52,194 nt of DNA, taken from a bacterium. Lineage in GTDB: Bacteria; SZUA-79; Acidulodesulfobacterales; Acidulodesulfobacteraceae. Under the pieces are notes generated by a model. The model did not search any database, was not told the origin of the DNA, and saw only the letters and a list, made by a program, of their open reading frames with translations. This document shows positions 1,590 through 51,383 of this stretch, one piece after another. The stretch spans positions 1 to 52,194 of the forward strand of contig QIJE01000034.1 of NCBI GenBank assembly GCA_003232385.1, written 5' to 3'. The translations under genes and the position numbers were made by a program. Position 1 is the stretch's first letter; each line of letters starts with the position of its first letter.

Positions 1590-4500
1590 TTACTTTATTA
1601 TTATCTCATCATTATCATCGGCAACGGCAAGTTTTTGCAATTCCCCTTTAAGCCAAACTTTATATTCCGAAACTTTCATTTTACGCGCCGGTATTTCTGT
1701 AGAAAAAGTTTTTTGTTTCGGATTTTCTCCGGTTTCCAGTTTTTCCCTTACAAGCCCTGCGCGCAGAATATCTATTTCGCCTTTCTTACTTCCGTATAAT
1801 TCAATAAAAGAAAGAACTTCGGAATAGGTAAAGCGGATGATTTTATCTTTAACATCAAAATCCAACTTAATTTCACTTCGCGATCTTTGCTGTGCATATT
1901 GCTTTATATTTTCAGCTTTTAATTTTGTTTCATTGTTTAAGCCCGAAGGTAAAGAGCAGATTCCATCAATCAGTTTCTGAGTCAATACCTCTATTTCAGA
2001 ATATTTGGCTGCACAATCTTTCATTGCCTCGCTAAAGAGGCTATAGTAATTGTCTTTAATTTGCTGAGCGATATGATTTAGTTTTCCAAAATTATTTACA
2101 ATATCATCATTAAAATATTGTTTAAATGACTTTACCGACCGAGTAATGTTTTCATCAGACTTAGCGGCTTTTGTCAGTTCATCCAAAACCGCGACGGCAA
2201 ATGCTTTCCATTCTTTAGCTTTTGGCAGTTTGTTATGGATAAACTTCTCGATTTTCTCAATCGATTGAATTGCATTCAGAAATTGCTCTTTATTATTTAA
2301 GAAATCATTTGCTTTATCGGTATAATTAGCTTCGCTAACCGATCCGGTATGATTAGCGAGTAAATCTGCAAGAGAATCCGTGTTTGCAAAAAGATTGTTG
2401 AAATCTTTTTCACTATTTTTCAAAGTTGTTAGTTTATCTACAAAATGCCTTGCTAAATTACGAATGGCATTGACCAGTTCAAAATCGTTGGTGTTATAAT
2501 CTACTTTTCTTCCAATATATTTATCGGCATCAATATTGAGCAGGAATTGGGCTAATTCTTGTTTTTGCAACAAAGAGAGAGATTTAGAAACCGCTTTAAA
2601 AGAGGTTTTTCGAAATTCAAGTGCGGCGCTAAAAATAGCTGCAACGCCATCATCGCGCCATGAATATTTTTCTTCCCCATTGTACTTTGCAATAGCTTTA
2701 CCCGCTCTCATCAAAGCGGCAACGGTCGAGATAACCGTTCCGAAAGTAAATCCGGTAGGCGGTTGTTCCAGTTCCAGCTCTAGTGTTTTGCCATCCACAA
2801 AGGCTTTTCTTATTTTAAATAAAATTTCCTCGGAAACTTTAAGATTTTCACCTATGAAATTGCCGTGAGGATCAAAAAAAATAAAATCGTTACCGTGAAA
2901 ATATTGGTACAGTCTAGTATCATTTGCTTCTTTAATAACAGCTTTTGCTACAGTGTCGCTAAGTTGCGCACCAAGCCGTTTTGTATAAATATTCCTAATC
3001 AGCTCTTTTTGTTGTGATTTTATTGTTGCTAATGCATTATCTTCATTTAATTGCAAAACATTGAAAAGATATATTAATGCCGACTGTTTTAACGAAATTG
3101 CAACCAATTGCTCAATTCTGGTCTGCTTCTCACTTTTTGCAGTTGAAAAACCAATTAAAATTCTTCCTTCTTCACCATTTAGATTATTGTATTTCTGTTC
3201 TAAGTAATTTATGCGTTCAACTTCATCAATTAACTTGTCCAATTCGTTAAAAACACTATTGTCCGGTACGATCCATATTAAATCTTTATCATTTTGATGC
3301 TGGATCTTTAAGTTTTCTATATCCTGGGTTCTGTCATCTAAAATATTGTACAAACTTTTGATTTTAATTTTAAGGTATTTGTTAGCCGGAATAGTTAACC
3401 CGTCATCATTATCTGTAGTAATATAAAAGTCATAATTCAGATTATTTTCATTAATCCGTGCAATTGATTTTATAAAATCTGATTTTTTCAAAGCAGAAAC
3501 GAACTGCTTTTTCTTCACAAATCCCTGCACGGTATAACTATTCATTTCATCAAGCAGATATTGTTCTATGTCGGAGGTAATTCTGTATGTATTATTGGAT
3601 TCAAGCAGTATTTTTGCTTCAATTAACGTCCCAAATGCTTTTTTTATATCTTCCTTGACTTGATAGTATTGTTCCGGATCACATATAAAAGCTTTAATGA
3701 TGTTATTTATATTCGCTGGCGTAACTTCTGCTTCGGCTAAGAAATTTATAGTTTCCAGTAATTTTCTGCCCGAAATTGGGGAACCTGTTTCTTTTAATAT
3801 GCGCTCGGCATTATCGTATCTATTCACCAATCTTACCGGAGGAGAGGGTTGGGCTTCTTTTGCAATCTGCCAACCGGTTACTGTACAAAACAACTCTTCG
3901 TTTTGTACTTCCTTTTTTAAGATATCATAAGTAGTAATGATCATACCGCGGGCAGCTACTTTAGTAGAAACATATCCTTTTGTACCAAACAAGAAATTTT
4001 GCAAAAGGTCAAAATGGTATTTATTAAATGGATAATAAGTTACATACAAATCAACATTATCTGTTTTTGTAATGCCTGAACCAATTAGTGATGAATGATC
4101 TGCTATTTTTCCTGAATTCTTCCGAAAATGATCCCTCAACCGATTAATTCCTTCTTCGTTTTTACTTAATAACCTGCTTTTAATGATTTGATCAACCTCT
4201 GTTGCTTCCAAATGTATTTTCGTCTTAAACCGGTCGGTCACCTTTATTAGCTGAGCCTTACTTACATTCGAGTTGTTGATAACGTCATCTAATTTCTCCT
4301 GAGCAATAGCAATGGTCCAAATTCTATTTCCCGGCGAGGACAATGCTTCGCTCACACCTTCAAGGTCAAGAAGCGTAAATTTATTTTGATTGATTGCTTC
4401 GCTGGCTTCGTCAAAAAGAAAGACAATTTTTTCATCACTTTTTATTTGTAAATAATTGTTAATCTCATCTTTTAATTTGCCTGCGCTAAACTGATCAATT

Positions 4501-5174
4501 TCCCTACGGATAGTGGTTAACAAATTATCGTAGTCATTTTCAGAATTTCCTTGTTTAATAAATATTTCTTTTGCTGCTTTTACATATTCAATCATTTTGG
4601 TTTTTAATTCATTCCAATTTTTATTCAAATAACGATAAATAAAATTTTCAATATTAGTCTGTTCATTGTTAATCATCAATTGAAATAATAAATACCCGTG
4701 CTCATTTTCCGGTAAATCGAGTGACTTTAGAAAGTTGCGAAATAATGCGTAGGCAAAACCCTTTGCGGTATCTTGTTTTGCAATATCAAGAAACACTATT
4801 CTTGAATGAATTGCACTTAATCCGGACAATGCATTTTTGATCAGAGCTTCATCTGCTATTCCGGTAAACCTTTGTAAAATTCTTTCCCTTGCCGGTGTTC
4901 CAAGAATTAATTTATTGCTGAGTAAGTAACCAAGAATTTTACCAAAATATGACTTCCCCGAACCATAAAATCCGGAAACCCACACTCCGGTTTCCAAAAT
5001 GTTAGTTGAATAAACTGAAACAAAATCGGCAAATTCTCTGGCTAAACCATCTGTAATAATATAGTTTTCAATTTCATCCTTAATTTCTTGTTCAGAAATA
5101 TTTTCAAGATCAATTACATTCTTAATGTCTTCGGTAAGATCAATAGTTAATACTTCTTTAATTTTCATCTTCAT
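1590..5174 (-). CDS. brxC: BREX system P-loop ATPase BrxC
   Basis: This 1,194-residue protein matches the size of BrxC/PglY ATPases of BREX phage-defence systems. A Walker A motif, GFYGSGKS, lies at residues 68-75 within a VWVSGFYGSGKSYF context typical of the family. A Walker B-like VFLFDEAS lies at 251-258. The rest is long, charged and largely helical, with no other domain I recognise. BrxC is a large cytoplasmic ATPase thought to act in the complex that recognises or modifies DNA. The gene sits 6 bases after brxB and 6 bases before pglX, a tight operon. An ATG-AAG-ATG pair offers two possible starts (codons 1 and 3), with only a weak purine-rich ribosome site. Identity is firm from the motif, length and order; the exact biochemical role in the family is not settled. 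Confidence 0.92.
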   Translation of the reverse strand: MKMKIKEVLTIDLTEDIKNVIDLENISEQEIKDEIENYIITDGLAREFADFVSVYSTNILETGVWVSGFYGSGKSYFGKILGYLLSNKLILGTPARERILQRFTGIADEALIKNALSGLSAIHSRIVFLDIAKQDTAKGFAYALFRNFLKSLDLPENEHGYLLFQLMINNEQTNIENFIYRYLNKNWNELKTKMIEYVKAAKEIFIKQGNSENDYDNLLTTIRREIDQFSAGKLKDEINNYLQIKSDEKIVFLFDEASEAINQNKFTLLDLEGVSEALSSPGNRIWTIAIAQEKLDDVINNSNVSKAQLIKVTDRFKTKIHLEATEVDQIIKSRLLSKNEEGINRLRDHFRKNSGKIADHSSLIGSGITKTDNVDLYVTYYPFNKYHFDLLQNFLFGTKGYVSTKVAARGMIITTYDILKKEVQNEELFCTVTGWQIAKEAQPSPPVRLVNRYDNAERILKETGSPISGRKLLETINFLAEAEVTPANINNIIKAFICDPEQYYQVKEDIKKAFGTLIEAKILLESNNTYRITSDIEQYLLDEMNSYTVQGFVKKKQFVSALKKSDFIKSIARINENNLNYDFYITTDNDDGLTIPANKYLKIKIKSLYNILDDRTQDIENLKIQHQNDKDLIWIVPDNSVFNELDKLIDEVERINYLEQKYNNLNGEEGRILIGFSTAKSEKQTRIEQLVAISLKQSALIYLFNVLQLNEDNALATIKSQQKELIRNIYTKRLGAQLSDTVAKAVIKEANDTRLYQYFHGNDFIFFDPHGNFIGENLKVSEEILFKIRKAFVDGKTLELELEQPPTGFTFGTVISTVAALMRAGKAIAKYNGEEKYSWRDDGVAAIFSAALEFRKTSFKAVSKSLSLLQKQELAQFLLNIDADKYIGRKVDYNTNDFELVNAIRNLARHFVDKLTTLKNSEKDFNNLFANTDSLADLLANHTGSVSEANYTDKANDFLNNKEQFLNAIQSIEKIEKFIHNKLPKAKEWKAFAVAVLDELTKAAKSDENITRSVKSFKQYFNDDIVNNFGKLNHIAQQIKDNYYSLFSEAMKDCAAKYSEIEVLTQKLIDGICSLPSGLNNETKLKAENIKQYAQQRSRSEIKLDFDVKDKIIRFTYSEVLSFIELYGSKKGEIDILRAGLVREKLETGENPKQKTFSTEIPARKMKVSEYKVWLKGELQKLAVADDNDEIIIK

Positions 5175-5180
5175 TTCTCT

Positions 5181-5759
5181 TTATTTTATTATCATACATC
5201 TATATTTTGAGGCCGGGCGGGAATTAAGAAACATTAACTTATCGCCTTGCTGTGTTGCCGGGTATAAAATGATGAGAGGTGAATTGGAATTCATTACAAC
5301 TTTATTTTCCATTAAATGAATATTATCTATCCCCGTACCATACAATGCTCCTGTATTATATAAAACCGGTATTTTATTTTTCTTAAATGCACTTTTAATT
5401 TCGCAGATAATATAATTGAAAAAATCATCATTAGATTCTCCTTCGGGTGATTTAAAAATTTGATACAGGGAACTCTGTAATAATTTGAAAGCCTCTTCTA
5501 AATCATCTTTAGATTTTTTAGTGTATGAAATCAATAAATCATTAATATCAATGTTTTGGTAATTACTGCTATTCATCATTTTTAGCAAAGTATCAATGAA
5601 TTCATTCTCTTGCTCGGGTGGACAAACCAAAAGAATGGAATTGCCTCCATTTGCGTTTAAGCGTATCTCAGATTGTTTGTCGGCTTCCACCAGCTTAATA
5701 ACCTGATTTACTAAATGTTTAATTTCTTTTGATGTTTTCATAAATATTTTCGCATTCAA
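5181..5759 (-). CDS. brxB: BREX protein BrxB (DUF1788-type)
   Basis: A 192-residue protein between brxA and brxC. Its C-terminal half has the pattern seen in DUF1788/BrxB: a block around residues 124-134 (VLYNTGALYGT), then SPLIILYPATQQGD and a terminal run ending SRPASKYRCMIIK, which match the family's ...fYPG...nYYRa... region. BrxB is a small BREX core component of unresolved biochemical function. The 5' end overlaps the 3' end of brxA by 41 bases in another frame, implying translational coupling. A second in-frame ATG at codon 7 (5741) would shorten the overlap and could be the true start. Assignment relies on both sequence pattern and operon position. Confidence 0.8.
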   Translation of the reverse strand: MNAKIFMKTSKEIKHLVNQVIKLVEADKQSEIRLNANGGNSILLVCPPEQENEFIDTLLKMMNSSNYQNIDINDLLISYTKKSKDDLEEAFKLLQSSLYQIFKSPEGESNDDFFNYIICEIKSAFKKNKIPVLYNTGALYGTGIDNIHLMENKVVMNSNSPLIILYPATQQGDKLMFLNSRPASKYRCMIIK

Positions 5760-6474
5760 TTAAGGGTTCAATTTTTAAATTATCGCCCGTATAAAAAATA
5801 TTAAAATAACTTACGAATTGTCTCTTTCTTATGCGATCCAGAAAAATCTGCGACTCTGTGAATCCATATTTTAACAAAGGATTATTAATGAGATTATTAT
5901 TGTTGCTCTCAGCAACCAGCCAATATACAAATAGAATAAATAATTTATCACTCATAAATGGGTGTTTAATGTTTTTTATTTGGGTTCCTTCCATTAGTCC
6001 AAATTTTTTTAAAAGTGTTAAATATTTTGATCCTGTTGTTGTCATTGTACTAAACGACCATTTTTTAATTGCTTCTTCAGAATTTTTAAGCTCATTTAAA
6101 CAAGCAACAGCTTCATCATTGTTAATAGAAATACGACCGCTATAAAATGCTGGGAAATATACATTATCATTTAAGTAACGGAATAAGTCATTGTTTAGCG
6201 ATGTATTCCAAAATAAGAACAATAACGTATTTTCTGAAAGTCCTTCCTCGGTAATTAAAGATTTAAATAAACTTTTAATATTTTCATTTTTAAATGACAG
6301 CAGTGTTGATGTTATTGCTTTCTTAAATCTTTTTACAGATCTATTTGTCTTAATAACTGTAAAAGAACTGATTTCTTTTTCTTTATTAAAAGTATCTTTA
6401 TGCTCATAAAAATAAGTTATCAAATTTAAGTCTAAAAGACTGCCTAAAATATTTATATCAGAGTTTATGTTCAT
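5719..6474 (-). CDS. brxA: BREX protein BrxA (DUF1819-type)
   Basis: First gene of the visible BREX operon, 251 residues. Its size, its largely helical composition and its place directly before brxB fit BrxA (DUF1819). That family is a small DNA-binding-type BREX component, sometimes annotated as an inner-membrane protein. The central segment KWSFSTMTTTGSKYLTLLKKFG (about residues 138-159) resembles the winged-helix region of the family. No strong Shine-Dalgarno sequence precedes the ATG; the leader is almost pure A/T. The brxA-brxB-brxC-pglX order is that of type 1 BREX, in which pglZ and brxL would follow beyond the left edge; types 5 and 6 share this beginning and cannot be excluded. Confidence 0.8.
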   Translation of the reverse strand: MNINSDINILGSLLDLNLITYFYEHKDTFNKEKEISSFTVIKTNRSVKRFKKAITSTLLSFKNENIKSLFKSLITEEGLSENTLLFLFWNTSLNNDLFRYLNDNVYFPAFYSGRISINNDEAVACLNELKNSEEAIKKWSFSTMTTTGSKYLTLLKKFGLMEGTQIKNIKHPFMSDKLFILFVYWLVAESNNNNLINNPLLKYGFTESQIFLDRIRKRQFVSYFNIFYTGDNLKIEPLIECENIYENIKRN

Positions 6475-41766: not shown

Positions 41767-42012
41767 CTATTTAATTCGTTTACCGCAGGCATTTTGAATC
41801 ATTGAGGATTGCTTCTTGCTTTTGGTATTCTGCATAGCTTTGGATTGCTTCCTGCTTTTGGTATTCTGCATCATTGAGGATTGTTTTTTACCGCAGGCAT
41901 TTTGTATACCGGCAATATTACTATTACCGTAAGCCATTGCATAAGCATTGCCCGTCAGCGTCATTCCAAAAAGCAAAAAAACCGCTGTTATCACCAGAAT
42001 AATTTTTTTCAT
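41767..42012 (-). CDS. Small secreted repeat protein
   Basis: An 81-residue protein with a clear signal peptide (MKKIILVITAVFLLFGMTLT..., cut after AYA near residue 25). Mature part consists almost wholly of a 12-residue repeat: QNACGKKQSSMM (37-48), QNTKSRKQSKAM (49-60), QNTKSKKQSSMI (61-72), then a partial QNACGK (73-78). It is basic, rich in Lys, Gln, Ser and Met, with two cysteines (C40, C77) in identical ACGK contexts. I do not recognise a family. It is separated by 122 bases from the thioredoxin gene and shares the Met/Lys theme with that protein's tail. Location suggests an envelope role linked to the Sox cluster, but this is inference. Confidence 0.6.
   Translation of the reverse strand: MKKIILVITAVFLLFGMTLTGNAYAMAYGNSNIAGIQNACGKKQSSMMQNTKSRKQSKAMQNTKSKKQSSMIQNACGKRIK
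41779..41904 (-). repeat. In-frame 36-base tandem repeat (3.5 copies)
   Basis: The coding repeat of the small secreted protein. Three full 36-base units and one half unit, imperfect in sequence, keep the reading frame. Such arrays can change copy number by slippage. Confidence 0.7.
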
Positions 42013-42134: not shown

Positions 42135-42686
42135 TTATTTTTTCATCATTTTCATAATCTTCATCATTTTCATTCGCATAAGACGTTGCGAAACGATATT
42201 TAGCACCTCCTCATACATATAACCCTTCCAGTGGAACACGATTATGCCGCTTTTAGAGACAAAAAAGGTTTGCGGAATTTCTTTTATGCCGCCGTACTCG
42301 CTCAATACTTTGTTTGTTGCGTGAACCACCGGATAATCCATTTTATATTGATGTGTAAATGCCCTCACCCCTTCCGTTGTGACGTTTACGTTTATACCTA
42401 TTATCATGAGTTTCTTTGATTTATTTTTATTATAAAAACTTACAAAATGAGGTATTTCCTCTCTGCACGGAGGACACCAGGTCGCCCAAAAATTTATAAT
42501 TACGGTCTTTCCCTCTAAAGATCTCAAGTCTATGTTCTTATAACCCGAAAGATCAGGATTTAACACTTTCAAGCTAAAATTAGGAGCCTTTTTAGATTTA
42601 GCGAAAGATATCTCGGGAAATACGAATATCGAAAATATAACGATTAAGGCGATTAAAAGTATCACGGCTGATTTTAATCTTTGCAT
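42135..42686 (-). CDS. TlpA/ResA-like periplasmic thioredoxin (SoxW-type role)
   Basis: The 183-residue protein has an N-terminal membrane anchor or signal (about residues 7-24, ending in FAK) and a TlpA-like thioredoxin fold with the redox pair C71-P-P-C74 in the FWATWCPPCREE context. The cis-Pro loop is KEIPQTFF. Beside ccdA and sox genes it should take electrons from CcdA and reduce cofactor or SoxY thiols in the periplasm, like SoxW. The C-terminal tail (169-183) is odd: seven Met and five Lys in 15 residues, encoded by a low-complexity run. Confidence 0.88.
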   Translation of the reverse strand: MQRLKSAVILLIALIVIFSIFVFPEISFAKSKKAPNFSLKVLNPDLSGYKNIDLRSLEGKTVIINFWATWCPPCREEIPHFVSFYNKNKSKKLMIIGINVNVTTEGVRAFTHQYKMDYPVVHATNKVLSEYGGIKEIPQTFFVSKSGIIVFHWKGYMYEEVLNIVSQRLMRMKMMKIMKMMKK

Positions 42687-42724: not shown

Positions 42725-43486
42725 TCATCCGTTATAAGGAATGTTGTAACGAAAAGTGTTTCCGAAATATAAAGAAATCACCGCCAGATAATTAAAAAAT
42801 ATGAGTATTCCCGCAATGATTAAGATAATACCCCCTATAACGGAAATAATTTTTATGAACGGCCGAAGCTTTTTGGATGTAGATAGAAAAATATTCAAAG
42901 AAAAAGACGCCGCTAAAAATGGCACCGCAAGACCCATAGCATACACGAACAATAACACGCCCCCCTCGCTTGCGTTATGCATAGTCGAGGCAATAAATAA
43001 TATTGAAGCAAGTATAGGACCTATACACGGCGTCCATGCGGCGGCAAATACGATACCCACTAAAACCGAGCCGATTAACCCCGCCGGTCTATTTTTTAAA
43101 TTAAAATTTGCGTCGGAAGACAAAAAAGACAAAAATTTTATTTTGTTAAACGCCCCCAGTATAAAGAATCCCATAAGGATAATAAAGATACCCGATACTC
43201 TCATAAGCCATATAGAATGCAACAGGCTTCCCACCGCGCTTGAAAATACGCCGAGCAGGACAAACACGAGCGTAAAACCGAGAATAAACATCAGAGAATG
43301 CTTAATTGCAGTCAACTTTAACCGCGTCGTTTTAGATGCGGTAAGTTCATCCACCGACATACCCGATACATAAGACAGGTAAGAAGGTATTAAAGGAAAA
43401 ACACATGGGGAAAGAAACGAGAAGAGCCCTGCCAAGAATGCGACTATAAGAGAAACATTGGGCGCAAAAAAAGTACCTATATCCAT
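42725..43486 (-). CDS. ccdA: CcdA/DsbD-type thiol-disulfide transporter (SoxV-like)
   Basis: A 253-residue membrane protein with six predicted helices. Redox cysteines C28 (LSPCVFPLIPSYLSY) and C154 (WTPCIGPILA) match CcdA. It carries reducing equivalents from cytoplasmic thioredoxin across the inner membrane to the periplasmic thioredoxin encoded 38 bases downstream. In Sox operons the equivalent is SoxV. The ATG follows a GGAGG-like site (AATGGAGGTC). Confidence 0.93.
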   Translation of the reverse strand: MDIGTFFAPNVSLIVAFLAGLFSFLSPCVFPLIPSYLSYVSGMSVDELTASKTTRLKLTAIKHSLMFILGFTLVFVLLGVFSSAVGSLLHSIWLMRVSGIFIILMGFFILGAFNKIKFLSFLSSDANFNLKNRPAGLIGSVLVGIVFAAAWTPCIGPILASILFIASTMHNASEGGVLLFVYAMGLAVPFLAASFSLNIFLSTSKKLRPFIKIISVIGGIILIIAGILIFFNYLAVISLYFGNTFRYNIPYNG

Positions 43487-43668
43487 AATAAATAGACCTC
43501 CATTTTTTTAGGATATTATATCACAGTTATTCATTGCACCATAATAGCGCACGACCAACCCTTCTTCTCCTTCATCCCGATATATGTTCGATTCCCGTTA
43601 TCATCGCCCGAAAAGGCCGCTTAAAAACATAATAGGTATTATCAATTTGATTTTAAACGGCATATGAA

Positions 43669-43706
43669 AGTATAGTTTCCTCCCATTGGCAGGAGGAAAC
43701 TATACT
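43669..43706. other. Perfect 15-bp inverted repeat (hairpin) before ccdA
   Basis: AGTATAGTTTCCTCC at 43669-43683 pairs exactly with 43692-43706 around an 8-base loop. It lies in the 244-base gap between the DsrE-like gene and ccdA. No long T-run follows on either strand, so it is a weak terminator at best. Protection of upstream mRNA from 3' decay or a regulator site are alternatives. Confidence 0.6.
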
Positions 43707-43730
43707 AAAGTAATTGTTCTTCCACATGGA

Positions 43731-44261
43731 TTACGGTTTTAAAAAGGAATAACCCTGCGTCTCCCTTCTTACGATCTCGACTACGCCTGCAGGCACTACC
43801 TTTACGAAAGGAAATAACGACTCAGTCGTGGCGTGAAAATGTAACATGGTATTATGACATGCCCTTAACATTAAACCGTAGACCGCTAAACTTTGTAATA
43901 TAGGCTCGTTTTTTTTATCGAATTTTTTCATAAGAAGCTTTAATCCCGGACCGAATACAACAATCTCTATGCTATATTTAAACGGGTTATCTCCGAATGT
44001 CGCCATAACGTTTCTAACATTGTTTATCGTCTGTCTCCATACTTTAGGATTGGCAGAATCAACCTCTACAACCATCTTAAAGACCTTATGCTTAAAAAAC
44101 ACAGGCGGCGGTAATCGGTGAGTATTATAATAAGCAGGATAAGAACTGTAAGAAGATGGGCCGTACTTTAGCGCGTAAGCATTGTTGCCGTAGGACGACA
44201 AAGATGCAATGATCAAAGCAAACGCTGCGATTATCAATAAAAACAATATGTTTTTTTTCAT
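43731..44261 (-). CDS. Secreted DsrE-like protein (first of two)
   Basis: A 176-residue protein with a signal peptide (residues 1-30, cut after AYA), a proline/tyrosine-rich linker, then a DsrE/DsrF-like domain from about residue 58. Marks of the fold: VVEVDSANPKVWRQTINNVRN, IEIVVFGPG, and the conserved C135 in YGLMLRACHNTM. Typical DsrE proteins are cytoplasmic sulfur carriers; this one is exported. Its paralogue lies on the other side of the SoxA-like cytochrome (44807-45289) with the same ...KKxDKKNxPxxQSLxxYGxxxxACxNTM core. C135 may carry a persulfide. Exact function unknown. Confidence 0.75.
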   Translation of the reverse strand: MKKNILFLLIIAAFALIIASLSSYGNNAYALKYGPSSYSSYPAYYNTHRLPPPVFFKHKVFKMVVEVDSANPKVWRQTINNVRNVMATFGDNPFKYSIEIVVFGPGLKLLMKKFDKKNEPILQSLAVYGLMLRACHNTMLHFHATTESLFPFVKVVPAGVVEIVRRETQGYSFLKP

Positions 44262-44291
44262 TTTAATCCCTCCGATTTTTTTAAGTTTTTT

Positions 44292-44774
44292 TTATTTTTT
44301 ATTCAACTTCTTTTTCTTTATGGGAACGTTAATTTTATGCCCGTTAGATATATACGCAAGATAAAGATATAAGTATTCGACATACTTTGAATGAGGACCG
44401 TATTTGAAGCCGTCTTCTCCTCTCAATATACAGTGCCTCAACTGGTCTTGTATGGAGTAGGGAATTTTTTCATTTGAATATACGTTCGCTTTTTTAAATT
44501 TTGGATAGTAAGTAGCGGGGAACGGGGGGATCGGAACTAACGAACCCATTATCCCTTTACCCGTAATATCAGCAATTGTATGGCAGGTTTCACATGATTT
44601 ACCATTTGCCCCCAGCGGAGTTTCATAATATTTTTTGCCTAATTTAACACCCTGCATAAAATTTTTAGGTTGTCCGGCAAACGCATTATTGACGGCATAA
44701 AACATCGGAACGGCGGCAAAAATAAGCAATAAAGCGAAAAACCCGGCATACTGTGCGCTATTATTCTTCTGCAT
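44292..44774 (-). CDS. SoxA-like mono-haem c-type cytochrome
   Basis: A 160-residue protein with a signal peptide or anchor (about 10-33) and one haem c site C61-E-T-C64-H65. The C-terminal part has the SoxA pattern: ATYYPKF near 87-93, then IQDQLRHCI with C115 where SoxA has its axial cysteine (persulfide ligand), and YLYLYLAYISNGHKI near the end. It should couple the sulfane sulfur of thiosulfate onto SoxY. It is much shorter than classical SoxA (about 270-290) and no SoxX gene is seen. A different SoxA partner or a fused role is possible; a generic cytochrome is the alternative. Confidence 0.65.
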   Translation of the reverse strand: MQKNNSAQYAGFFALLLIFAAVPMFYAVNNAFAGQPKNFMQGVKLGKKYYETPLGANGKSCETCHTIADITGKGIMGSLVPIPPFPATYYPKFKKANVYSNEKIPYSIQDQLRHCILRGEDGFKYGPHSKYVEYLYLYLAYISNGHKINVPIKKKKLNKK

Positions 44775-44806
44775 CTCAATCCTCCAATATTTATTTATAT
44801 ATTACC

Positions 44807-45289
44807 CTAGTTGGTTTTAATATAACTAAACCCTTCTCTTTCTTTCATGGCTATGTAGAAAACCGCTCCGGGATAAGCTATTTTTACAAAATTAAACAAT
44901 TGTTTAGGTTTTATATGGAGCGTCTTCATCGTGTTATAGCATGCGATAAACTTTACTCCGTAAGCATGCAGACTCTGAATCGTCGGGTAATTTTTCTTAT
45001 CATACTTTTTCATCAAAAATCGCATCCCCCCGGGGGCATATGCAACTACGTCTATCTTTAAATTTATAAAATGCGGATTTGACAATATTATCGCATTTGA
45101 AACATCGGATAACGTTAATGCCCATTCTTTAGGATTAGAACCGGTTATGACATATATCTCTTTTAGCGGATGATGTGAGAAGTACTTATAAACGTTTATA
45201 ATTCTTCCCTTTGCATACGAATTAATCGGAAAACCCGTCGAAACAAGTACCGCTAATATGGCAAATATAAATAAAATTTTAATCTTCAT
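44807..45289 (-). CDS. Secreted DsrE-like protein (second of two)
   Basis: A 160-residue protein with a signal peptide (about 1-26, cut after SYA), then a DsrE-like domain: EIYVITGSNPKEWALTLSDVSN, IDVVAYAPGG, and C117 in YGVKFIACYNTM. It is a paralogue of the 43731-44261 gene; the two flank the SoxA-like cytochrome in the same orientation. It lacks the 30-residue proline/tyrosine linker of its paralogue. Periplasmic sulfur carriage is likely, given location between soxB and a Sox cytochrome. Confidence 0.75.
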   Translation of the reverse strand: MKIKILFIFAILAVLVSTGFPINSYAKGRIINVYKYFSHHPLKEIYVITGSNPKEWALTLSDVSNAIILSNPHFINLKIDVVAYAPGGMRFLMKKYDKKNYPTIQSLHAYGVKFIACYNTMKTLHIKPKQLFNFVKIAYPGAVFYIAMKEREGFSYIKTN

Positions 45290-45358: not shown

Positions 45359-47047
45359 TTAACCTGCCGTCCTTGAATGCCTATATGTTACGCCTTCTGT
45401 TTTCGCGGGTTTAATATTTCCATGTTTTCTAACATAATCGGCTATAACATCATAAGCCTTATATTTTGTTAATCCCTTATTGTCAGGATTCATGTTTTGC
45501 ATTTTTATACCGGTGGACACCGCCCAATACTTTTTATTTAAATCCAAGGGTTTTCCGTTGATTTTCCATGTCTTAATTCTCTTATTCAGCGACTCGTTCA
45601 GTAATAAATGAAATTTTGAATTGGAAACGCGCGTCACGTCGCCCCCCATTTGCAGATACGGGTCTTTTGCAAAAACATCGCTTAAAACGCTTAATTGAGA
45701 AAATAACAGTTGCCTTCCGGTCAATCTGGTCTTATAAACCTCCGGATAGGTCGTACCGTACCAACCGTAAATATTTTCCATAGTGATATCGGAACCCGGA
45801 ACAAGCGTTTCTCCCCAACGCCAACCCGGGGCAAAAAATAACGGCATATCGAATAACTCCGTAAACGCTTGTTCGGCAAGGCTATCAACGGGACATGCAA
45901 AAGTCGCTCTTCTATAAATCAAAGATTCGGCAATCCCCAATTTTTCATTAAGCAGGTCATTATATGGGGCATGTTCCTCGTCAATTATCTTTTGCACTTT
46001 TTTATCGGGATTAATCCAGTTTGTAACAATAGGTATTAATTTATGATCGTAATCTGTTATTCTTCTATTCTTAACGTTTAAATCGATCTTTCCTATAAAC
46101 TTACCGTGCGTACCCGCCTGACATATAATGGTGTTATTAATAATATCGGGAGCGGGGAGTATATCATGGGTATGCCCGCCTATTATTAAGTCTATACCGT
46201 TAATTAAAGCCGCAAACTTCCTGTCTGCCTCTAGACCGTTATGTGAAAGAACGACGACTAAATCTACCTTTTCTTTATTTTTAAGTTCATTTACCATTTT
46301 CTGCGCATGATAGGTGTCTATTCCGAAAGTCCAGTTCTCGACAAAATGGGCGGGGTGAGCTAACGGAACGTACGGAAAAGCCTGACCTATTATGCCTACC
46401 CTTAAGCCGTTTATCTCTTTTATCATGTATGGCTTGAATATAAGATTGCCCCATGTTGAATCCTTGACATTTTGGGCTATAAACGGAAACTTCAATTTTT
46501 TGATGTTAGATAAGAGCTGCTTCTTGCCGTAAGTAAACTCCCAATGTCCCGTCATGGCGTCATAACCCATGGCATTTTGAGTATTCACTACCGCCATGCC
46601 TTTGGTAAGAAGGGCTATCCCCGTACCCTGCCATGAATCTCCCGTATCAAGCTGTATGGTCTTATTGTATCTTTCGGCTTTTATCTTATTAAAAATAGAT
46701 GCCATATGGGCATAGCCGCCCATATAACCATACCGTTTGTTTAAATTTACAAAATCAACGTATGAGCAAAAATACCCCATGGCGGATTTTGGGTTGATAT
46801 CGTAATAAAGATTAAACGAGTCTCCGACCAAATGCCCCGGTTTGCCGTTCATGCTATGACAGCCTATGTTAACGGAAGGCTCCATATATAAAGTAGGTTT
46901 TAAATGGGCATGCGAATCGGAATTCCATGTGATAGTCAAATTGCCTACCGATTTAAATTTTAAAAGGTTCACAGGGTTTATTGCGACCCCGGCCGCAAGA
47001 ACTGACGATGTTTTCAAAAAGTCTCTCCTGGATAATTCGCCGGACAT
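45359..47047 (-). CDS. soxB: Sox sulfohydrolase SoxB
   Basis: The 562-residue protein has a twin-arginine signal (SRRDFLKTSSVLAAG, RR at 7-8) and the metallophosphoesterase/5'-nucleotidase fold of SoxB. Metal-site segments: WNSDSHAHLKP near 41-51, QLDTGDSWQGTG, LSHNGLEADR, IIGGHTHDILPAP and the QAGTHGKF block. SoxB hydrolyses the S-sulfonate on SoxY to release sulfate, using two manganese ions in the periplasm. An AGGAG site lies just before the ATG. A perfect 18-bp palindrome lies 30 bases upstream. Confidence 0.95.
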   Translation of the reverse strand: MSGELSRRDFLKTSSVLAAGVAINPVNLLKFKSVGNLTITWNSDSHAHLKPTLYMEPSVNIGCHSMNGKPGHLVGDSFNLYYDINPKSAMGYFCSYVDFVNLNKRYGYMGGYAHMASIFNKIKAERYNKTIQLDTGDSWQGTGIALLTKGMAVVNTQNAMGYDAMTGHWEFTYGKKQLLSNIKKLKFPFIAQNVKDSTWGNLIFKPYMIKEINGLRVGIIGQAFPYVPLAHPAHFVENWTFGIDTYHAQKMVNELKNKEKVDLVVVLSHNGLEADRKFAALINGIDLIIGGHTHDILPAPDIINNTIICQAGTHGKFIGKIDLNVKNRRITDYDHKLIPIVTNWINPDKKVQKIIDEEHAPYNDLLNEKLGIAESLIYRRATFACPVDSLAEQAFTELFDMPLFFAPGWRWGETLVPGSDITMENIYGWYGTTYPEVYKTRLTGRQLLFSQLSVLSDVFAKDPYLQMGGDVTRVSNSKFHLLLNESLNKRIKTWKINGKPLDLNKKYWAVSTGIKMQNMNPDNKGLTKYKAYDVIADYVRKHGNIKPAKTEGVTYRHSRTAG

Positions 47048-47165: not shown

Positions 47166-47498
47166 TCAAGTAACGTTTATGGAAACCGATTTCTTATAAA
47201 TATTCCCTTTGGTATCGTACATCACGAAATCTAACGGCGCCGTTTTATTTCCGGCTTTTACGTCAAAAACTAAAAAAGGATTAGCTGATATTGCTATTCC
47301 GTAATTGCATCTGGTAATTAGCCTTTTGTCGTAGTATACATCAACCTTATTTATTATCCATTTAGGGATAATTTTACCTGTTTTTTTATTTTTTCTAAGG
47401 CCGGTATCCATTGGATGATGAGTCAACGACATTACCTTGAAAATCTTCCCCTTCTCTACGCTGCCGGGCACCCTGACTAAAATAGTACCTATTTTCAT
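47166..47498 (-). CDS. soxZ: Sulfur-carrier partner SoxZ
   Basis: The 110-residue protein matches SoxZ: VRVPGSVEKGKIFKVMSLTHHPMDTGLRKN near the N-terminus, ARAGNKTAPLDF-like middle and an immunoglobulin-type beta fold. It forms the SoxYZ heterodimer that presents the SoxY cysteine to the other Sox enzymes. It has no signal peptide of its own, consistent with co-export on the Tat signal of SoxY. Confidence 0.95.
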   Translation of the reverse strand: MKIGTILVRVPGSVEKGKIFKVMSLTHHPMDTGLRKNKKTGKIIPKWIINKVDVYYDKRLITRCNYGIAISANPFLVFDVKAGNKTAPLDFVMYDTKGNIYKKSVSINVT

Positions 47499-47561: not shown

Positions 47562-48080
47562 CTAACAACCGCCGAGTGTAACTTTAATTTTTCTTTTATA
47601 GCCGTAAACATCGCCGTTGGAATATTCCGCTAAAACCTGGACGTACGATTCCTGTTGCAATTTAATCCTTGTTTTAATGAAGGCCGTGCCGTTTCCCGGG
47701 CTTAAATCAAATGAAGCGGCACGGGGAAACGGATTGTTGAGATCGTAAATATAAAAAGTTTTTAAGTATAATTTATCGGTTTGTGGGTTTTTCACTTCTA
47801 TCGTTATCGGAACAAAGGCTCCGTTCTGGGCAATTAACGGAAGACGGACTCTTGGAATAAATAATTTTTCTTCTTTTGTCGGATGATCGATCCATTTTAC
47901 TTTTTTGCCGTTAACGGTTTCAATGTTGCTTAAAATAATAGGAGGAAGCTTACTCGTTATTTTTTTAGCAAAAGAATCTTTTGGAATACTCATAATTGAA
48001 CCTGCACCTACGGTGATAGCCGTGACAATCGCCGTTTTTTTAATAAAATCTCTCCTCGTTACCCTTAACTGTTTACTCAT
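47562..48080 (-). CDS. soxY: Sulfur-carrier protein SoxY
   Basis: A 172-residue protein with a Tat signal (TRRDFIKKTAIVTAITVGAG, RR at 9-10) and the SoxY beta fold. It ends GGC, with the carrier cysteine C172 as the very last residue; the classical tail is GGCGG. The cysteine carries the sulfur intermediates of thiosulfate oxidation. It is first of the sox genes, with a sigma-54 promoter about 45-60 bases upstream, and soxZ follows 63 bases later. Confidence 0.93.
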   Translation of the reverse strand: MSKQLRVTRRDFIKKTAIVTAITVGAGSIMSIPKDSFAKKITSKLPPIILSNIETVNGKKVKWIDHPTKEEKLFIPRVRLPLIAQNGAFVPITIEVKNPQTDKLYLKTFYIYDLNNPFPRAASFDLSPGNGTAFIKTRIKLQQESYVQVLAEYSNGDVYGYKRKIKVTLGGC

Positions 48081-48137: not shown

Positions 48138-48153
48138 TGCAATGTTCATGCCG
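48138..48153 (-). promoter_or_regulatory. Sigma-54 promoter for the sox cluster
   Basis: Minus strand CGGCATG-AACA-TTGCA. It matches the consensus TGGCACG-N4-TTGCA at all but two positions and keeps the invariant GG-N10-GC spacing. Transcription would start near 48127, about 47 bases before the soxY ATG. Confidence 0.7.
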
Positions 48154-48457: not shown

Positions 48458-49828
48458 TTATCCGAAAAGATTATACTTCTTCATTTTCGTTATAAGCTGT
48501 TTCCTGGATATACCAAGCGCGATTGCTGATTTGGTCTGATTATAATCATTTTTTTCAAGTGCATTTTTGATTACGTATATTTCCACATCCTCAAGCCTCA
48601 AGTTGTCCGACGTTAAGTTGATTATGCCTTCGTCATCCTTGTCTCCAAGCCGCTCGGATGTTATTGTCCTAGGAAGGCTTGACGGTTCCAACACGTCATA
48701 AGGAGAAACAATGACGGCTCGCTCGATAAAATTCTCAAGCTCCCTTATGTTGCCCGGAAACGCATAATCCATTAATATCTTAATTGCCTCTTCCGAAATA
48801 GATTTTATATTCTTCTTATTGAGCTTGCCGTATTTTTTAACGAAGAAATTTGCAAGCGGAGCTATGTCCTCTTTTCTTTCCCTTAGACGCGGAATCTTAA
48901 AATGGAGTACGTTTATCCTGTAAAAAAGGTCTTCCCTGAACTTTTTCTCTATAACAGCTTTTTCAAGTTCTATGTTAGTGGCACAAATGATTCTTGCATT
49001 AAGTCTAATTTTTTCATTTGAACCGATTCTCGAAAATTCTTTATCCTGTATCACCCTTAACAATTTTGCCTGCATAAATAGAGGCATATCCCCTATCTCG
49101 TCTAAAAAAAGTGTCCCGCCTTCAGCCGTTTCAAATTTGCCTATTTGCCTTGAAATTGCACCGGTAAAAGACCCCTTCTCATGCCCAAAAAATTCGTTTT
49201 CCATAAGGTCGATGGGCACTGCGCTGCAATTTATCGGAATAAACTCTCCACTTCTCCCGGAAAGATCGTGCATTATTCTTGCGACAAGCTCTTTTCCGGT
49301 ACCCGTTTCGCCGGTTATTAAGATGTTAGACTTGAATTCGGCGGCCAAATAGGCCTCATGTAAAATTTCTGCCAATGCGGGGCTTTCAAATATGAAATTT
49401 TCCTTAATTTTTGACATATAATCCGATTCTTCATTTTTCGATTCCAAGTTATCAAGTTTTTCGCCTTTATTTTTATTTAATATTACCTTTAGATTTTCGG
49501 AAAGACCTTCTATGTCTACCGGCTTAGAAATAAAATCGTTAGCCCCCATTTTTATAGCGTAAACCGCCTGCTCAATACTACCAAACGCCGTGATTATTAT
49601 GAACACAACTAGTTTATCAAAATTTCTGACCTTAGAAAGTAATTCTATCCCGTTCATTCCCTCTAATTTTAAATCGCATAAAATTATATCATATCTGTTT
49701 TTCAGAAATAGATTAAATCCCTGCTCTGCACTAATAGCCGTATCTACTAAAAATCCCCGCTTAATTAGATTTAAGCTTACGACTCTTAGGATATTTTTCT
49801 CGTCATCCACCAATAAAATTTTAATCAA
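48458..49828 (-). CDS. Sigma-54-dependent NtrC-type response regulator
   Basis: The 456-residue protein has a receiver domain (D8/D9, phospho-acceptor D52, T80, K102), an AAA+ domain (Walker A GETGTGKE at 173-180, GSFTGA at 219-224 as the sigma-54-contact loop, Walker B FLDEIG at 241-246) and a Fis-type helix-turn-helix at the C-terminus (LEKNDYNQTKSAIALGISRKQ). It is preceded by its kinase, 34 bases away. The next genes downstream are sox, behind a sigma-54 promoter, so these are its probable target. Start is a TTG at 49828. GAFTGA is GSFTGA here, a known variant. Confidence 0.95.
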   Translation of the reverse strand: MIKILLVDDEKNILRVVSLNLIKRGFLVDTAISAEQGFNLFLKNRYDIILCDLKLEGMNGIELLSKVRNFDKLVVFIIITAFGSIEQAVYAIKMGANDFISKPVDIEGLSENLKVILNKNKGEKLDNLESKNEESDYMSKIKENFIFESPALAEILHEAYLAAEFKSNILITGETGTGKELVARIMHDLSGRSGEFIPINCSAVPIDLMENEFFGHEKGSFTGAISRQIGKFETAEGGTLFLDEIGDMPLFMQAKLLRVIQDKEFSRIGSNEKIRLNARIICATNIELEKAVIEKKFREDLFYRINVLHFKIPRLRERKEDIAPLANFFVKKYGKLNKKNIKSISEEAIKILMDYAFPGNIRELENFIERAVIVSPYDVLEPSSLPRTITSERLGDKDDEGIINLTSDNLRLEDVEIYVIKNALEKNDYNQTKSAIALGISRKQLITKMKKYNLFG

Positions 49829-49862: not shown

Positions 49863-51383
49863 TTAAAGTAGCCGTAATAATGGTATAACAAGCGTAAAAA
49901 CCGTTCTGCTTTCGTCTCCGCAAACATTTATCGTCCCATTATGCAGTTTCATTATACGCAGGGATATCGGAAGACCAAGACCGGAACCCGTATTTTTAGT
50001 CGTAAAAAAAGGTTGAAATATTTTGTTTAAGTTTTCTTTTGGTATAGGACATCCGTTATTACTGATTTCTACATTTACAAAACCATCTCTAACCCTCGTC
50101 CGCACTTCTATCACCCCGTTTTTTGACACGCCCAATGTACAAATTGAGTCTATCGCATTTACTATCAAGTTGAGAATAACCTGTTTTAATAATTCCGGAT
50201 CTCCTTTTATTAAAACGACATCGTCACTTATTAAATCTTTAATTAATTTTATGTTTAAACCGGATAATTCAAGTTCCGATACCCTCAAGGATTCGTTTAT
50301 CAATTTGTTTATGTCTATCGTCGTCAGCTCCGGATCTCTTTGTCTTGTAAAACTTAAAAAATCTATAGTCATTCTATTTAGTCTTTTTACCTCTTTGCCT
50401 ATAATATTAGTAAGCTCTAAGACAATTTTATTTTCCGATTCATTGGCTATATAAGTGTTTGCGGACAAGATGACATATGTCGTATTTTTTACTTCATGGG
50501 CAATATGCGCCGACATTTCTCCCATAACAGCCATACAGTTCAATTCGCCCTTTTCTTTATTTACGGAATCTATCTTTTTCGTATAATCCTCTATAGCCCG
50601 TGCCATTAAATCAATAGCGTTTATCACGTCTCCTATCTCATCGTCAGACCTATTCTTAAAGACTATTTTGTAATCGCCGTTTTTTATTTTCTCTATATTT
50701 TCTTTTATTTCGGATAACGGCTTCATCAGAAAAATAGTCATTATATAAAACATAAGAAGTCCCAGTATAATAAATACGACCGCTATCGTTAAAAATCTGA
50801 TTCCAACCCAAAAAACACGACTATCGGTAATTTTCATCTCCTTTTTTATATTAAATTTAATAGCAACAAAACCTAAATTCTTACCGTTATATCGGAGATT
50901 TTTAGTCAAGATAGAATATTCTTCATAGGCTTTGTGCCCATGGGGGTAACTTCCTAATAGTGTAAACTTCGTAGCCAAATTTTTTAGATTATTGAATAAT
51001 CTAAAAAAAAATCCAGATCTGTTACTATTCTTTCTTATACAAAAAATATGTTGAAAATCATTTGTTAAAAGATTTTTCCTAACGACTATTAGCTTTTTCT
51101 TATTATTATATAACCAAACGCCTTCCACCATTCCATAATTATTTATATTAGAATATAAATATTGCTTAACAAATTTAGTTTTACCCAAACGATAGAGATA
51201 ACCTATTTCCGAAGCCAAAACATTAGCCCACCGTTCGTTGCTTAAATAATTCCTATAAGACAATGTTCTGTATATGGTAAAAAGAAATACCCCGTCACTT
51301 ATAAATGCCGTAAAGAAAAAAATAGCGAATGCACTAAGCAATACTTTCCATTTTATACTCAAATTTTTGAAGAAGCTCCTCAT
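49863..51383 (-). CDS. Sensor histidine kinase
   Basis: A 506-residue membrane kinase with two helices (about 16-38 and 191-218) enclosing a periplasmic sensor domain of about 150 residues. HAMP follows (219-272), then HisKA with the phospho-acceptor H296 (AHEVKNT) and a HATPase domain: N box NLIVNAID with N409, G1 block SNNGCPIP (441-448) and G2 GSGLGLP (466-472). It phosphorylates the regulator encoded just after. The sensed signal is unknown; a sulfur compound would fit the neighbouring sox genes. Confidence 0.93.
   Translation of the reverse strand: MRSFFKNLSIKWKVLLSAFAIFFFTAFISDGVFLFTIYRTLSYRNYLSNERWANVLASEIGYLYRLGKTKFVKQYLYSNINNYGMVEGVWLYNNKKKLIVVRKNLLTNDFQHIFCIRKNSNRSGFFFRLFNNLKNLATKFTLLGSYPHGHKAYEEYSILTKNLRYNGKNLGFVAIKFNIKKEMKITDSRVFWVGIRFLTIAVVFIILGLLMFYIMTIFLMKPLSEIKENIEKIKNGDYKIVFKNRSDDEIGDVINAIDLMARAIEDYTKKIDSVNKEKGELNCMAVMGEMSAHIAHEVKNTTYVILSANTYIANESENKIVLELTNIIGKEVKRLNRMTIDFLSFTRQRDPELTTIDINKLINESLRVSELELSGLNIKLIKDLISDDVVLIKGDPELLKQVILNLIVNAIDSICTLGVSKNGVIEVRTRVRDGFVNVEISNNGCPIPKENLNKIFQPFFTTKNTGSGLGLPISLRIMKLHNGTINVCGDESRTVFTLVIPLLRLL

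Follow-up and report, generated by a model that had tools for sequence, protein, structure and literature searches.

The window analyzed here, a 52,194-nucleotide stretch of DNA from an uncultured, sulfur-cycling member of the Acidulodesulfobacteraceae, carries a sox cluster whose genes all lie on the minus strand in the order histidine kinase, sigma-54 regulator, soxY, soxZ, soxB, dsrE1, cytochrome, dsrE2, ccdA, and ResA/TlpA thioredoxin. SoxB (45359..47047), which has a Tat signal, and SoxZ (47166..47498) exceed their NCBIfam cut-offs (TIGR04486, 621 bits against 550; TIGR04490, 83.7 bits against 76), and SoxY (47562..48080), likewise with a Tat signal, scores 90 bits against Pfam SoxY and 88 bits against NCBIfam SoxY (cut-off, 125). 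The SoxY chain stops at GGC and lacks the two glycines that normally close the GGCGG arm. A search for SoxC returned zero matches in the window's genome and none above the cut-off in its relatives, and no gene in any searched genome of the family passed the family cut-off for SoxX, for which only generic class I cytochromes appeared at sub-cut-off scores. The two DsrE-like paralogues that the initial annotation had placed around a SoxA-like cytochrome are indeed there, dsrE1 at 44807..45289 and dsrE2 at 43731..44261, with the cytochrome gene at 44292..44774 between them.

The sensor histidine kinase (49863..51383; HAMP, HisKA, and HATPase_c domains in Pfam) is a probable regulator of the sox-dsrE cluster, and it is followed by a sigma-54-dependent response regulator with NtrC/AtoC-type NCBIfam matches (48458..49828); the same pair also adjoins sox genes in several relatives. 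A sigma-54-like promoter, CGGCATGAACATTGC (GG-N10-GC; 48139..48153, minus strand), lies 73 bp before soxY, a pattern that by itself shows no enrichment within the window. Sites of the TGGCAT-N5-TTGC type occur 76 to 159 bp before the first operon gene in the clusters of seven relatives, upstream of ccdA or a porin-like gene (L054, L057, L059, L062, L063, L064, and L073). Such conserved sites before sox-dsrE operons, near sigma-54 regulators, are reminiscent of Acidithiobacillus TspSR. The Acidithiobacillus sox-II cluster shares with the window an upstream sigma-54 two-component system and a soxCD-less sox gene set but has the order soxXYZA-hyp-soxB and includes SoxX, whereas the window has no SoxX over the cut-off (PMC6335251).

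Gaps of 69, 32, and 30 bp separate soxB, dsrE1, the cytochrome gene, and dsrE2. A strong hairpin with a 16-pair stem (43668..43707, minus strand; z = -5.8) stands 3' of dsrE2 as the probable transcript end; it has no T-run and is thus not a typical intrinsic terminator. Given this hairpin, soxYZB-dsrE1-cyt-dsrE2 probably forms one transcript and ccdA-tlpA another. These two genes encode a CcdA/DsbD-type thiol electron carrier in a SoxV-like position (42725..43486; Pfam DsbD_TM, 69.5 bits) and an exported ResA/TlpA thioredoxin in a SoxW-like position (42135..42686; Pfam AhpC-TSA and NCBIfam ResA matches). Two further minus-strand features of the window are a gene for a small, exported 81-aa protein containing repeats like QNACGKKQSSMMQNTKS (41767-42012) and the BREX defense genes brxC, brxB, and brxA (1590-6474; PADLOC, 1630, 220, and 234 bits, respectively).

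DsrE1 (160 aa) and DsrE2 (176 aa) each contain one cysteine in the full-length chain, C117 and C135, respectively, embedded in a YGxxxxACxNTM motif that reads YGVKFIACYNTM in the former and YGLMLRACHNTM in the latter. The conserved single cysteine pointed out by the initial annotation is invariant across 27 copies from the window's taxonomic family, and conservation on this scale rules out a chance motif. Shine-Dalgarno-like purine-rich sequences precede the ATG starts (GGGGGAAGG for DsrE1 and GGAGG for both the cytochrome and DsrE2). From these starts, Sec-type N termini can be read by eye in all three proteins, namely, MKIKILFIFAILAVLVSTGFPINSYA before KG in DsrE1, MKKNILFLLIIAAFALIIASLSSYGNNAYA before LKY in the cytochrome, and MQKNNSAQYAGFFALLLIFAAVPMFYAVNNAFA before GQ in DsrE2; those of the DsrE pair begin lysine rich, continue with a long hydrophobic segment, and end at a cleavage site of the AYA or SYA type. 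The signal peptides previously attributed to both DsrE proteins were thus found again at these starts, which strongly suggests that the two proteins are exported.

In Pfam, both proteins fall just below the DsrE gathering score (PF02635; 21.9 and 21.1 bits for DsrE1 and DsrE2, respectively, against 22.7), which other sox-linked relatives reach. A search with the family profile finds MTH1491 (1l1s; E value, 9e-17) and ST0148 (2pd2; E value, 7e-12). AlphaFold2 returned a confident model of DsrE1 (pLDDT, 86.7), for which the best PDB match in Foldseek is 1l1s (TM, 0.93), the top 11 matches all being of the DsrE/YchN/TusB type. Structure prediction hence confirmed the DsrE fold for the DsrE1 model, and DsrE2 is assigned the same fold by homology. 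In the model, the cysteine sits at the end of a strand and before a helix, which we take to be the DsrE/TusD active-site position. MTH1491 and ST0148, presumably of the COG1416 type, have this fold in common with the exported DsrE proteins (TM, 0.93 and 0.82) and place a cysteine in the same motif (ACSNTL and GCENSI), but their chains start directly at the DsrE domain, whereas the exported proteins begin with a signal peptide. To our knowledge, proteins of this type have no Sox context. DsrE1 and DsrE2 are about 36 to 38% identical; DsrE1 groups with the copies of genomes G001 and G021 (98/99 support), and the closest relatives of DsrE2 are G003/G006-type copies (67% identity). This divergence and the different closest copies rule out a recent tandem duplication and mark the two, on sequence grounds, as old paralogues.

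The cytochrome between them is a monoheme c-type protein of 160 aa corresponding to the C-terminal half of SoxA. It passes the Pfam threshold for SoxA-TsdA_cyt-c (27.9 against 27), but the match to the NCBIfam SoxA profile TIGR04484 scores 36 bits (cut-off, 110) and spans positions 104 to 210 of 212 only. Since it fails that cut-off and covers only the C-terminal half of the profile, "SoxA-like" is the correct designation and "SoxA" would be too strong. The protein has a CETCH heme site, with Cys115 at the position of the heme-ligand cysteine of SoxA; both align with the full diheme SoxA of relatives and with the unrelated SoxA-like proteins of L110 and L178. In a weak alignment with the diheme cytochrome 1h31, Cys115 falls on the RFRGCI cysteine, which we take to be the heme-ligand cysteine of Rhodovulum sulfidophilum SoxA. 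The AlphaFold2 model of the cytochrome is poor (pLDDT, 53.7). Relatives L055, L057, L059, L060, and L061 have a diheme SoxA in the same position. In L056 (10168-10650 and 9108-9569) and L058 (7283-7726 and 8306-8785), SoxA is split into two monoheme proteins with dsrE between the halves. The first Sox step in the window's genome is uncertain, because the cytochrome falls short of the SoxA threshold and the genome yielded no SoxX.

The association of these genes with sox is conserved in the window's family. A soxB match was found in 17 of 30 genomes, that of the window included. Regions downstream of soxB were assembled in 14 cases from 13 genomes (the window, L054 to L065, and L071), leaving aside G024, G027, and G028, in which contig ends cut soxB, and G013, in which it is split over contigs; an exported DsrE follows soxB directly in all 14, although in G011 the DsrE gene itself is cut by the contig end. 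The arrangement does not stand alone: dsrE-soxA-dsrE recurs in seven family clusters besides that of the window. Some clusters have a third and a fourth DsrE, the third usually with a lipobox (LLLTGCAKK), and in G021 (L065) the two DsrE genes next to soxB do not flank a cytochrome. In relatives, CcdA and an exported thioredoxin precede soxY. Downstream of the sox-dsrE cluster, G014, G018, and G004 have tusA, a YeeE-type permease gene, and two small chp-like genes, with an exported rhodanese gene closing the set where the contigs reach that far; this set is a YTD-type module (compare PMC13047784). The YeeE/TusA import module stands directly after sox-dsrE in L059, L060, L061, and L066.

An exported DUF302-type protein is encoded between soxZ and soxB in relatives (L056:13081-13578, L057:5378-5905, L059:11057-11590, and L054:11719-12201; Pfam score of the L056 copy, 36.8 against a threshold of 23). 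No such gene occurs in the sox cluster of the window, and DUF302 genes are also listed in sox clusters elsewhere (PMC11034169). A separate branch of exported DsrE is encoded away from sox (L067:8343-8831, L068:6532-7023, L069:6467-6988, and L070:155-760), mostly beside apparent fur-type regulator and nif-associated genes.

The link to Sox extends beyond the family. Of 80 named soxB loci in Proteobacteria and other phyla, 19 have an exported-type DsrE in the flanks (two copies in six of them); in three of the 19 (L143, L152, and L159), one copy is a longer, anti-sigma-like protein rather than a simple exported DsrE. About one case or fewer would be expected among 80 loci, even on the generous assumption that a 4-Mb genome has three copies; roughly three-quarters of the loci have no DsrE of this type nearby. 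Exported DsrE beside soxB occurs in Alpha-, Beta-, and Gammaproteobacteria and in another class, as exemplified by soxA-soxB-dsrE-dsrE in "Candidatus Gallionella acididurans" (L121). Within the class of G155, the genomes with soxB and those with this DsrE type are the identical 7 of 117, and in 6 of these 7 the two genes share one contig, 2.4 to 3.3 kb apart on the same strand. Counts of this kind are inflated by relatedness, but they come from lineages independent of the window's. G155 itself (L178) has the order soxA-soxB-soxC-soxD-ccdA-dsrE-dsrE, soxD being assigned by position and two heme motifs only; the DsrE link is therefore not confined to clusters without soxCD. Both the 19 loci and the G155 class rule out that the DsrE-Sox arrangement is unique. 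The initial annotation knew of no description of the arrangement; DsrE genes in sox clusters have been listed in the literature, between soxB and soxC in Sulfitobacter (orf2; PMC11034169) and in the sox cluster of Sulfurovum indicum, where dsrE is transcribed more on thiosulfate (PMC10045233). These genes lie beside sox genes as in the window, but they are described as single copies in hosts with soxCD. In searches of the literature, exported or periplasmic DsrE with Sox came up only in annotation-level mentions.

The three longer proteins, encoded near sox genes at L143:2941-3771 (minus strand), L152:1648-2373 (plus strand), and L159:7606-8325 (plus strand), join an anti-sigma-like start (SDEILNAHIDNELDPVERNALL) and a membrane segment to a DsrE-like domain at the C terminus; of the three, the L159 protein alone reaches the Pfam DsrE score. 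Each is possibly a periplasmic sulfur sensor.

Elsewhere in the window's genome, a single YeeE-type permease gene (149 bits) is accompanied by tusA, chp1/chp2-like genes, and an exported rhodanese gene, and two strong DsrE-family genes lie on contig 1 in a region read by eye as dsrAB-dsrEFH-sat-apr. Alignment of A1 with the genome's own DsrE by hhalign lent no support to a match (probability, 0.45%). The exported pair shares with DsrEFH/TusBCD the DsrE fold, a conserved cysteine, and several paralogues encoded together. DsrEFH, however, is a cytoplasmic complex whose genes belong to dsr operons, and the signal-peptide-like N termini of the pair, its sox context, and the separate dsrE/dsrF-type genes on another contig place it outside DsrEFH. 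The gene content of the window's genome fits the published description of "Candidatus Acidulodesulfobacterales," in which soxA, soxB, soxY, and soxZ occur in the absence of soxCD, along with dsrAB, dsrEFH, and dsrL (PMC6776010).

The location of the DsrE pair and its association with Sox are well supported; its sulfur chemistry is what we infer. Our tentative reading, to which we give somewhat less than an even chance, is that DsrE1 and DsrE2 act as exported single-cysteine persulfide carriers of a truncated Sox system, taking sulfane sulfur from SoxYZ, probably for YeeE/TusA import. The SoxA-like cytochrome would conjugate thiosulfate to SoxY, and SoxB would remove sulfate. Because the SoxC search revealed no SoxCD to oxidize the remaining sulfane sulfur, the DsrE proteins, possibly joined in a mixed oligomer, may accept it in persulfide form from the C-terminal cysteine of SoxY. 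From them it would pass to the import module of YeeE permease, TusA, and exported rhodanese and so feed cytoplasmic DsrEFH, while reduction of the thiols would be maintained by CcdA and the TlpA thioredoxin. Such export from SoxYZ toward import is more natural than the relay between Sox components proposed by the initial annotation. Against the carrier reading stand the occurrence of DsrE with soxCD in L178 and in Sulfitobacter (PMC11034169), so that the DsrE link is not tied to SoxCD absence, the soxB loci that have no such DsrE nearby, the exported DsrE of L067 to L070 away from sox, and the uncertainty of the first Sox step. Occurrence with soxCD leaves room for other roles.

The main and serious rival, possible but with a clearly smaller share of our confidence, is that the DsrE proteins buffer persulfides and polysulfides or protect SoxYZ, stripping surplus or wrongly attached sulfur and restoring SoxY with CcdA and thioredoxin, with or without SoxCD. 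Its standing derives from the DsrE pairs that also accompany soxCD and ccdA, as in the complete Sox cluster of L178, and it draws further support from the CcdA and TlpA genes adjoining dsrE2 in the window, the CcdA and thioredoxin genes before soxY in relatives, and the precedent for SoxYZ maintenance that Paracoccus SoxS provides (PMC10451225; PMC11582611). However, one cysteine alone cannot reduce a disulfide, and several paralogues per cluster and the import module adjacent in some relatives suit transport better.

It is rather unlikely that the DsrE proteins are instead subunits of the SoxA-like cytochrome complex, standing in for SoxX or for the N-terminal SoxA domain that the cytochrome lacks and helping to dock SoxYZ. 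The bracketing of the monoheme cytochrome in the window, the lack of SoxX over the cut-off across the searched family genomes, and the dsrE genes between the SoxA halves of L056 and L058 speak for such a complex, but G021 dispenses with a cytochrome between its DsrE genes, and the pairs in L121 and L178 accompany SoxA-like cytochromes without flanking them on both sides. A mainly sensory function, reporting periplasmic sulfane sulfur to the neighboring kinase, is less probable still: the kinase and sigma-54 regulator preceding soxY, the conserved sigma-54-type sites upstream of the operon, and the anti-sigma-like fusions near sox in L143, L152, and L159 are compatible with it, but multiple copies inside a structural operon are unusual for sensors, and in many clusters no kinase adjoins the DsrE genes.

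The carrier reading bears on an unsolved step of Sox systems without SoxCD, the exit of sulfane sulfur from SoxYZ to the cytoplasm, which according to a 2024 paper occurs "by unknown means" (PMC11582611). The truncated Sox system of Hyphomicrobium denitrificans described there resembles that of the window in having no route for SoxY sulfane sulfur and in its YeeE-type importer (SoxT/YeeE), but release is ascribed there to DsbA- or SoxS-like thiol proteins, with exported DsrE going unmentioned in the passages on this subject. We consider it possible, though doubtful, that the missing carrier of sulfane sulfur between SoxYZ and importers of the YeeE/SoxT type is generally an exported DsrE paralogue; such paralogues would then be a periplasmic equivalent of DsrEFH, recruited to Sox clusters in several unrelated lineages.

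To conclude, the DsrE pair is a real, conserved component of the Sox cluster with a candidate role, a variant within a known protein family and a known pathway rather than a new kind of system. Exported single-cysteine DsrE proteins recurring beside soxB in distant bacteria are specific candidates for the SoxYZ sulfur carrier, and they suggest that a family usually regarded as cytoplasmic also has an exported branch.
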